Shown here piece by piece: positions 6,985 through 13,030 of a stretch of 64,000 bases of DNA. Under the pieces are notes generated by a model. That model was not told where the DNA came from. It saw only the letters and a list, made by a program, of their open reading frames with translations, and ran no database searches. A program made the position numbers and the translations under genes. Source of the stretch: an uncultured bacterium (GTDB lineage: Bacteria > Edwardsbacteria > AC1 > EtOH8); the NCBI GenBank assembly GCA_937863685.1, contig CALMGM010000005.1, positions 1,076,217 through 1,140,216 on the forward strand, read 5' to 3'. Within the stretch, counting starts at the first letter, position 1; each line of letters begins with the position of its first letter.

Positions 6985-6990
6985 GATTTG

Positions 6991-8376
6991 ATGAACCAGC
7001 CTGATAAAATAAAAATCATCGACACCCATGCCCACCTGACCAAAAGCGATTACAAAAGCGACCGGGACCAGGTCGTCAAAAGAGCGCAGGATGCAGGCGT
7101 TGAATACATCATAAACGTCGGCTACAATCTGAAGACCAGCATCGCTTCGGTGGAGCTGGCCGAGAAGTATGATAGCTGCTATGCTGCGGTGGGTATCCAT
7201 CCCCACGATGCCAAAACGCTGGATGAAAAAACATTCAAAGAGTTGGAGGCATTGGCCAAGAATCCCAAGGTTGTGGCTATCGGCGAAATGGGGCTGGATT
7301 TTCACCGAAATCTGTCCCCGAAAGAAATCCAGATAGAAGCTTTCAATAAACAACTGCTTTGGGCGGAGACCCTGAACTTGCCGGTGGTGGTGCATGATCG
7401 CGACGCCCATCAAGCGACGATGGATATCCTGAAGGAACACTCTGATCTCAAGGTTGTTCTACATTGTTTTGCCGGAGATGCCGAGATGGCTAGAGAGGCC
7501 AAGCAAAGGGGGTATCTTCTATCGATCGGAGGTCCGGTGACCTTCAAGAACTCCAAGCATCTTCCGGAGGTATTGAAGATCGTAGAACTGGAGAATCTGA
7601 TGCTGGAAACCGATTGTCCCTACCTGACCCCAGAGCCTCATCGTGGTCAACGCAATGAACCGTCTTATCTGCCAATCATTGCCAGAAAGGTATCTGAACT
7701 GCTGACGCCCCTTACTTATGAAGATGTCTGCCGGGTGACAAGTCTGAATGCCAAGAAGTTCTTCAATATAGGCAGAATAGATCCAGCCAAGATCGCTTAT
7801 CAAATAAGGGACTCGCTTTATCTGAATATCACCAACCGCTGCACCAATGCCTGCGTGTTCTGCATCCGACAGAAGACGGACTTCATCAAGGGGCATAACC
7901 TGCGGTTGGAGCGGGAGCCGAATTTTCAAGAAGTGATTGATGCCATCGGTGATCCGTCAAAATACAGGGAGGTGGTCTTCTGCGGCTACGGCGAGCCGAT
8001 GTTACGGCTGGATCTGGTTAAACAAGTGGCCGGCTGGCTTAAAAGCAAAAATGCCCAAGTGCGGATAAACACCAACGGGCATGGCAATCTGATAGCCGGG
8101 CGTGATATTATTCCCGAATTGAAAGACTTGGTGGACGAAGTTTCCATCAGCCTCAATGCCGGGGATCAGGAGACCTACGACAGGATCTGTCCCAGCCGTT
8201 TTTCAAATAAGGCTTTTGCGGCGTTGCTGGACTTTGCCGAGGGATGCCGGTTGGCGGGAATAAAAACAACGGTGACGGTGATGGATATGCCGGGGGTGGA
8301 TCTGGAATTGGCTAAACAGACAGCCAAGGACCTGAGGGTCAATATCCGCATCAGGCATTTTGATGTGGTTGGTTGA
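6991..8376 (+). CDS. TatD-family metal-dependent hydrolase fused to a radical SAM domain
   Basis: 461 residues from the ATG at 6991 (an in-frame TTG one codon earlier is less likely). Residues 8-260 are a TatD nuclease-like TIM barrel: DTHAH (HxH at 13-15), GEMGLDF (98-104), VVVHDRDAH, HCFAG and LETDCPYLTPEPHRG with the final metal Asp. Residues 275-461 are a radical SAM module whose cluster Cys are C284, C288 and C291 (CTNACVFC), followed by FCGYGEPMLRLD and INTNGHG. TatD-linked radical SAM proteins are normally encoded as separate neighbours; here they are one chain. The target is unknown. It lies between the IMPACT gene and a membrane protein. Confidence 0.9.
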   Translation: MNQPDKIKIIDTHAHLTKSDYKSDRDQVVKRAQDAGVEYIINVGYNLKTSIASVELAEKYDSCYAAVGIHPHDAKTLDEKTFKELEALAKNPKVVAIGEMGLDFHRNLSPKEIQIEAFNKQLLWAETLNLPVVVHDRDAHQATMDILKEHSDLKVVLHCFAGDAEMAREAKQRGYLLSIGGPVTFKNSKHLPEVLKIVELENLMLETDCPYLTPEPHRGQRNEPSYLPIIARKVSELLTPLTYEDVCRVTSLNAKKFFNIGRIDPAKIAYQIRDSLYLNITNRCTNACVFCIRQKTDFIKGHNLRLEREPNFQEVIDAIGDPSKYREVVFCGYGEPMLRLDLVKQVAGWLKSKNAQVRINTNGHGNLIAGRDIIPELKDLVDEVSISLNAGDQETYDRICPSRFSNKAFAALLDFAEGCRLAGIKTTVTVMDMPGVDLELAKQTAKDLRVNIRIRHFDVVG

Positions 8377-12266: not shown

Positions 12267-12416
12267 CTTTTTCAAATTGATTTTATACTAAAACCCCTAA
12301 GATACAGTATTTACAATACTTGCGAATTTTTTAATAAAGTCATAACCGCTGAACATATTGATATTAAAGGCTTTGCTGTACATCTTGAAGAAAATCTTAG
12401 AAAAATATGATTTTTC

Positions 12417-12455
12417 ATATCCACAACACAATATATTGTGTTGTGGATATTTTTT
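12417..12455 (+). terminator. Perfect 34-bp palindrome with T-tract
   Basis: An exact 17-base inverted repeat (arm starting ATATCCACAACACAATA) with no spacer, at 12417-12450, followed by TTTTT. It is a good intrinsic terminator for the deacetylase transcript, although it is unusually long, perfect and AT-rich. Confidence 0.7.
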
Positions 12456-12491: not shown

Positions 12492-12517
12492 AAAGCCTTG
12501 ATTTTAAAGGCTTTTTT
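12492..12517 (+). terminator. Second terminator-like hairpin in the same gap
   Basis: AAAGCCTT/AAGGCTTT with a seven-base loop followed by T residues. The 432-base gap 12267-12698 otherwise holds only the preceding palindrome, the promoter at 12581 and the leader of the small peptide genes. Confidence 0.6.
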
Positions 12518-12580: not shown

Positions 12581-12608
12581 TTGACAAAAATACAATATGT
12601 TGTATATT
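12581..12608 (+). promoter_or_regulatory. Promoter of the Lys/Ala-rich peptide genes
   Basis: TTGACA at 12581-12586, 16-base spacer, TATATT at 12603-12608. The start near 12615 leaves an 84-base leader before the first ATG. Confidence 0.75.
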
Positions 12609-12698
12609 TATAAACAAATAACACAAGAATATTAGAAGTGGTCAAACTATTTGGGAAATCGGTAAAAATCGGTTTCTAATAAAAAGGAGGTGAAAAAA

Positions 12699-12776
12699 AT
12701 GGCTTGTGCAAAGAAAGCTCCGGCAAAGAAAGCAGTAAAGAAGGCAGTAAAGAAGGTTGCTAAAAAGAAAAAATAA
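12699..12776 (+). CDS. 25-residue Lys/Ala-rich basic peptide (histone H1-like tail)
   Basis: The peptide is MACAKKAPAKKAVKKAVKKV followed by AKKKK: 12 Lys, 7 Ala, no acidic residue. The ATG is preceded at ideal distance by a full AGGAGGTGA Shine-Dalgarno (12685-12693). A consensus promoter lies upstream and a strong terminator follows the second peptide, so this is a complete transcription unit rather than chance. The composition and KKA/KKAV spacing resemble the C-terminal tails of bacterial histone H1-like proteins (Hc1/AlgP type), which bind nucleic acids. Function is inferred from charge only. Confidence 0.7.
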   Translation: MACAKKAPAKKAVKKAVKKVAKKKK

Positions 12777-12833
12777 CCGCAGGCTAGCATGAATGACCCA
12801 AACCAATAAACAACTATTAATGGGAGAATCAAC

Positions 12834-12908
12834 ATGCCAGTAAAGAAGAAAGCCGCCAAGAAAGTCGTCAAGAAGGCAGCCAAGAAGACCGCCAAGAAGA
12901 AAAAATAA
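12834..12908 (+). CDS. 24-residue Lys/Ala-rich basic peptide, paralogue of the preceding gene
   Basis: The peptide is MPVKKKAAKKVVKKAAKKTA followed by KKKK. A GGGAG ribosome site stands nine bases before the ATG. It shares the KKA(A/V)KK period of the peptide 57 bases upstream but differs at codon level, so the protein pattern rather than the DNA is kept. The same pattern recurs in the N-terminal extension of the methylmalonyl-CoA mutase at 47202. It is the last gene before the terminator at 12933. Confidence 0.7.
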   Translation: MPVKKKAAKKVVKKAAKKTAKKKK

Positions 12909-12932
12909 CTGATTGAGAAATCAGGTGTGCTC

Positions 12933-12963
12933 AAACGCCCCGGCTATGCCGGGGCGTTTTTTA
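12933..12963 (+). terminator. Strong intrinsic terminator
   Basis: A 12-base perfect stem AAACGCCCCGGC with a TAT loop and the complementary arm, then TTTTTT. It ends the basic peptide unit. Confidence 0.93.
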
Positions 12964-13000: not shown

Positions 13001-13030
13001 TTGACTTTGTAATTTGATATAACTTATAAT
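13001..13030 (+). promoter_or_regulatory. Promoter of the ABC/PhoU/PiT operon
   Basis: TTGACT at 13001-13006, 18-base spacer, perfect TATAAT at 13025-13030; the ATG of the ABC gene follows at 13066. Confidence 0.75.

Follow-up and report, generated by a model that had tools for sequence, protein, structure and literature searches.

A conserved two-gene cassette in Candidatus Edwardsbacteria encoding minimal Lys/Ala-rich peptides, candidate free-standing counterparts of histone H1-type tails

A dedicated transcription unit with two tandem genes for Lys/Ala-rich (KA) peptides of 25 and 24 residues was identified in a genome of Candidatus Edwardsbacteria, and the unit was found conserved across three genera of the phylum. 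The peptides are most likely DNA-binding polycations similar to the tails of histone H1 but free-standing, a reading for which the comparisons of sequence give about even chances. The window, meaning the whole stretch of 64,000 nucleotides that was analysed, is G000:C5:1076217-1140216 of the 2.72-Mb genome, and it was compared with the other members of a set of 10 phylum genomes belonging to one family and four genera (labelled g1 to g4). Statements on genome-wide occurrence are the result of pattern searches of the genomes. The features of the locus, in positions of the window, are as follows.

12417-12450, no strand assigned: distal inverted repeat, perfect, 17-bp arms that are DnaA-box-like, ATATCCACA ... 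TGTGGATAT
12581-12608, plus strand: sigma-70-type promoter TTGACA-16-TATATT, 11/12 consensus matches
12590-12605, no strand assigned: NrdR-box-like dyad ATACAATATGTTGTAT in the promoter, 13/16 consensus matches
12621-12636, no strand assigned: second NrdR-like box, left half ACACAA, 31 bp downstream of the first
12654-12677, plus strand: leader hairpin 5' of Shine-Dalgarno 1, predicted fold
12684-12693, plus strand: Shine-Dalgarno 1, AAGGAGGTGA, perfect
12699-12776, plus strand: ORF1, ATG at 12699 to stop at 12776, 25 aa, MACAKKAPAKKAVKKAVKKVAKKKK
12822-12827, plus strand: Shine-Dalgarno 2, GGGAGA, weaker than the AGGAGG of g2 and g4
12834-12908, plus strand: ORF2, 24 aa, MPVKKKAAKKVVKKAAKKTAKKKK
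12933-12963, plus strand: intrinsic terminator, GC-rich hairpin (12933-12959) with 12-bp stem AAACGCCCCGGC, then a T run

Both adjacent mini-ORFs described in the sequence-only reading were confirmed, and all the signals that it had assigned to them (a consensus promoter, a Shine-Dalgarno for each ORF and a strong terminator) were found. The peptides are 48-62% Lys with the remainder A/V/T/P. When short ORFs were classed as KA-rich if K made up 40% or more and K/A/V/T/P 85% or more, ORF1 and ORF2 were the only ones among 1032 in the window, and 100 kb taken from outside the window in the same genome contained none among 1528 short ORFs. The usual limit for gene calling is 90 nt, and genes of this size fall below it. 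The 63-nt stretch of the terminator folds at -29.6 kcal/mol with a z score of -5.4. The promoter TTGACANNNNNACAATATNTNGTATATTT is single copy in this genome even with three mismatches allowed, and the promoter with its spacer occurs once per genome in nine of the ten, always at the cassette; an extra three-mismatch hit in G009 reflects this dyad as read on the opposite strand. The promoter sequence is also present in named records of Candidatus Edwardsbacteria and UBP2, and promoter-like DNA in G047 and G053 has no KA ORF beside it. Considered together, the promoter and Shine-Dalgarno sequences suggest that expression of the cassette is high.

The locus was recovered by DNA similarity search in eight other family members. 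Absence of conservation in near relatives, together with absence of transcription, had been named beforehand as the outcome that would refute the proposal; the two-gene cassette is intact in eight of the 10 genomes, this one included, representing three genera. Promoter, Shine-Dalgarno, both ORFs and terminator are conserved across these genera, in agreement with the claim of a dedicated transcription unit. A ninth genome, G001, keeps promoter and Shine-Dalgarno, and its contig ends at ORF1 just past the latter; neither promoter nor ORFs were found in G005 (89% complete, 240 contigs). The AGGAGGTGA portion of Shine-Dalgarno 1 is invariant in the nine genomes, and GC-rich hairpins also occupy the terminator position in relatives. 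The ORF1 product ranges from 16 to 27 aa, always starts MACAKK or MPCKK and has an invariant Cys3, while that of ORF2 ranges from 13 to 24 aa and always starts MPVKKK or MPAKKK; the shortest, MPAKKKAAKKKKK of 13 aa, has an AGGAGG Shine-Dalgarno and is found in three genomes. Differences in ORF length are whole codons, whereas the distance from the -35 box to the ATG varies freely (82-118 nt). Codon changes in five genome pairs were 17 synonymous versus 7 nonsynonymous, with 22% synonymous expected (binomial P ~5e-7, for pairs that are partly dependent, one genome being common to two g1 pairs and another to two g4 pairs). Since length changes are whole-codon and substitutions mostly synonymous, the results argue for selection acting on the translated peptides, as had been proposed. 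The related proposal that the two ORFs have an amino acid pattern but not codons in common was borne out in part: the third base is different in most Ala/Val codons, but the Lys codons (AAG/AAA) are largely alike and the ORFs have in common a 68-nt repeat of 75% identity.

The cassette is flanked in g1 by genes for a polysaccharide deacetylase (PF01522) and an ABC transporter and in g4 by different genes, the downstream one convergent; the flanks in g2 differ from both. Since flanks vary among genera, the unit is self-contained and a role as attenuator or leader peptide is unsupported. Short Lys-rich ORFs with a terminator behind them, together with the leader hairpin in g1, are what would be expected of attenuator leader peptides sensing lysine or charged tRNA-Lys. 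However, the gene past the terminator is not constant, that of g1 has a promoter-like site of its own at 13001 (11/12 matches), the two ORFs are each separately initiated and no Rfam family was found at gathering score, sub-threshold matches being located at the hairpins. Attenuation is the least probable of the functions considered and can nearly be dismissed. The leader hairpin has counterparts in other g1 genomes and in G004 and none in g4; as a candidate conserved riboregulator it was judged weak and set aside, the z scores being mostly near zero outside this genome. A location of the cassette at the replication origin was also rejected, dnaA being at C5:802623 and the change in GC skew at ~800-930 kb, ~290 kb off. 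Two further features of the window were recorded. A single ORF at 6988-8376 encodes a fusion of TatD DNase and radical SAM domains and has a counterpart of 458-462 aa in G001, G002 and G003. Upstream of the cassette a direct repeat, TTGATWTTAAAGGCTTT, is present at 12358-12374 and 12498-12514; its TTGATTTTAAAGG is conserved in seven g1/g4 genomes, with one mismatch in G001.

The peptides are of low complexity, dominated by Lys and Ala with KKxx-type repeats, a composition that fits the free-standing histone H1-type tail of the sequence-only reading; the function so named is the likeliest one, although curated families and solved structures offer no match. Neither peptide matched Pfam or NCBIfam models at E values up to 1, searches in which short simple sequences are hard to detect, nor did peptide 1 match solved structure chains, and no family of free-standing KA peptides is described in the open-access literature searched. 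DNA binding by such sequences has precedents in the KPAA peptides of AlgP, which bind DNA in vitro (PMC9239181), and in the PAKK/KAAK tail of HupB, which stabilises DNA binding (PMC5676037). According to the mechanism proposed, the dedicated two-gene operon would yield two strongly translated Lys/Ala-rich peptides, the free-standing counterparts of H1-type tails, that bind nucleic acid, most likely chromosomal DNA, via the phosphate backbone and without sequence preference. Bound peptides would neutralise charge and help compact or protect the DNA, and the invariant Cys3 of peptide 1 could permit disulphide dimers. Peptides of only 13-27 residues may bind DNA weakly at the salt concentration of the cell.

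A conserved 31-aa gene of the same genomes, MPCGKKKKKHKIATHKRKKRLRANRHKKKLR, lies just downstream of a gene for an HU-like DNA-binding protein (G000:C2 ~47.8 kb; L059:1518-1613, also L056, L057, L058, L064, L065 and L072). Among the proteins of solved ribosomes, bS22/bL38 (AURKAIP1/COX24 domain) is matched by the product with an E value of 1.9e-9; Pfam and NCBIfam gave no match to it. A search for MxC..KK paralogues returned this bS22/bL38-type gene and the cassette locus, with no KA paralogue. The start of the 31-aa product, MPCGKK, recalls the MPCKK/MACAKK of peptide 1, and the size, charge and perfect Shine-Dalgarno of the KA genes would also suit accessory peptides associated with the ribosome or RNA, comparable to bS22/bL38 or bTHX. 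This reading, which with polyphosphate binding is the main rival of DNA binding, is nevertheless considered unlikely: low complexity and a length varying from 13 to 27 aa do not resemble a defined peptide that binds rRNA, the cassette has no ribosomal genes as neighbours and the solved chains gave no match. Binding of another polyanion is a still less likely explanation, under which the peptides would serve as counter-ions in granules of, for example, polyphosphate. The KPAA-repeat protein AlgP occurs in association with polyphosphate granules (PMC9239181), and a PHO4-type phosphate transporter is encoded 2.5 kb downstream of the cassette in this genome; however, in the other genomes examined the transporter does not neighbour the cassette, and the NrdR-like promoter would favour DNA synthesis instead. 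It is highly improbable that the peptides are membrane-active, either as cationic antimicrobials or as small toxins. The helical moment of the ORF1 product is moderately high in g1/g4 (0.42-0.62), as results from the KKxx period, but it is low in g2 (0.18-0.32) and in ORF2 of g4 (0.25), and there is no conserved neighbouring gene for an antitoxin or exporter. The main argument against membrane activity is hydrophobicity, the mean being between -0.33 and -0.72 and bulky hydrophobic residues being absent.

The promoter spacer is conserved across genera, which suggests the site of a regulator. The NrdR-box-like and DnaA-box-like elements described below, like the occurrence of comparable peptides in other families, had escaped the sequence-only reading. 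Scored against the NrdR-box consensus ACACWATATATWGTGT, the promoter dyad matches at 13-14 of 16 positions in all nine genomes and contains the conserved C and G; the second site, of which the left half is conserved in the nine genomes and the right half is not, has the C without the key G. NrdR boxes are paired 16-bp palindromes with conserved GC pairs and a spacing of 31-32 bp (PMC12051234, PMC2892513, PMC9110341). Two boxes are normally needed (PMC12051234), although a single box works at topA of P. aeruginosa (PMC4409342), a precedent for such control of a DNA-topology gene. The nrdR gene was identified above the curated cut-off in eight of the 10 genomes, this one included, just upstream of nrdD. 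The class III enzyme NrdD is the only ribonucleotide reductase (RNR) found in the phylum, class I/II (PF02867) being absent in the phylum genomes searched. The assemblies of G002 and G005 have neither gene, and gaps in the assemblies are likely because nrdD is missing as well as nrdR; G002 still keeps the promoter site. In all eight nrdR promoters one box is placed between -35 and -10 and a second follows 31-32 bp further on, forming a degenerate NrdR-like pair of the CCACATATGGTAG / CCACAAGATAAGG type (loci L129-L136; nrdD loci L157-L165). The KA promoter thus resembles the phylum's own NrdR-controlled nrdR-nrdD in the position of the box and the 31-bp spacing, but its second box is only half and its target is not an RNR gene. 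The first box begins 9 bp from the start of TTGACA at KA promoters versus 7-8 bp at nrdR, and the pairs score 22-23 versus 20-22 of 32. Random promoters with fixed hexamers reach the KA pair score in ~3e-4 of cases, a figure that serves as a guide only since the site was picked after inspection.

On balance, a different account of the dyad is slightly favoured, namely that it is the site of another regulator, or part of a strong constitutive promoter with a constrained spacer, and that its likeness to an NrdR box is coincidental. The half second box points in this direction, as do the A/T in place of C/G at positions 5 and 12 relative to box 1 of the nrdR promoters and the retention of the site in G002, where nrdR was undetected. 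Position in the promoter, spacing and pair score are, however, all as at nrdR, the score is rare in random promoters, and a gap is likely in the G002 assembly, in which no RNR at all was detected.

The distal inverted repeat sits about 100-160 bp upstream of the promoter. The 16-bp core at 12426-12441 is identical to the NrdR consensus and is the only site in this genome with two or fewer mismatches to it. The arms are conserved in g1 and g4 and degenerate in g2; the g4 version has an exact DnaA box, TTATCCACA, as one of its arms, and its core retains ACAC...GTGT without the centre. Enrichment of DnaA boxes was significant in four of nine genomes (g4 and G007, each with an exact box and additional near-boxes, P <=0.003) and not significant in g1 and G004. 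Genomes of g1 and g2 also have exact TTATCCACA boxes upstream of dnaA. An equally simple interpretation is that the repeat in g1/g4 is a terminator of the upstream gene, since a T run follows. Separately, in the sequence of this genome that was sampled outside the window, the highest-scoring NrdR-like pair with 31-32-bp spacing (21/32) is located upstream of dnaA (L156 ~2131 = G000:C5 ~802131), with three exact DnaA boxes beside it. The promoter site and the upstream DnaA-box-like sites raise the possibility that transcription of the cassette is coupled to DNA synthesis. It is doubtful, although conceivable, that the operon of minimal histone tails is timed by dNTP pools through NrdR and by replication initiation through DnaA, as a bacterial counterpart of replication-dependent histone expression in which DNA-binding polycations would be produced in step with new DNA; if so, charge neutralisation in the nucleoid would be linked to nucleotide supply.

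KA mini-ORFs beyond the phylum were sought in 386 genomes with a pattern comprising a Shine-Dalgarno, M-[ASTP]-x-K-K, 18-48 nt and K-K-stop. The strict pattern matched 27 of the genomes, and clear KA mini-ORFs of 15-22 aa, as judged by eye, were present in approximately ten unrelated families (genomes G029, G052, G073, G078, G203, G211, G220, G307, G334 and G349; loci L183, L186, L187, L196, L197, L198, L201, L202, L207 and L211). Examples are MAAKKKTKKKATKKKATKKKK (G052), MATKKKAKKATKKKK (G029), MAKKKVAKKKVAKKKVAKKKKK (G078) and MAAKKKAAKKKAKKK (G073). These ORFs lie behind strong Shine-Dalgarno sequences, several with a terminator-like hairpin after them, and encode peptides of the same size and composition as those of Edwardsbacteria, but they are single rather than tandem and without Cys. 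No convincing NrdR-like pair was found upstream of them (best 20/32); thus such control, if real, would be particular to the Edwardsbacteria phylum. Minimal KA peptides appear to be a recurring type with sequences too simple to judge common descent, and, the genes being below the calling limit, the class has possibly been widely missed. Longer KA proteins of 118-120 aa were observed in G034 and G044.

Bacterial H1-like tails are known mainly as portions of larger proteins, and chlamydial Hc1/Hc2 and other bacterial H1-like proteins, also Lys/Ala-rich, are much longer than the KA peptides. The ribosomal proteins bS22/bL38 and bTHX are as tiny and basic, but peptide 1 has no sequence match among solved chains. 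The KPAA tails of AlgP and PhaF from Pseudomonas are likewise of low complexity, built of Lys/Ala(/Pro) repeats some four residues long; there, however, the repeats form a 154-aa tail of a larger protein, whereas here the whole protein is 13-27 aa, encoded in tandem, Pro-poor and, in peptide 1, provided with Cys3. The same PAKK/KAAK-type basic motifs occur in the C-terminal tail of HupB from Mycobacterium and in the tails of eukaryotic H1/H5 (PMC5676037), from which the KA peptides differ in being without an HU or globular domain. If they bind DNA as proposed, a tail of as few as 13 residues here makes up the entire protein, which bears on the minimum length at which a DNA-binding protein can function.
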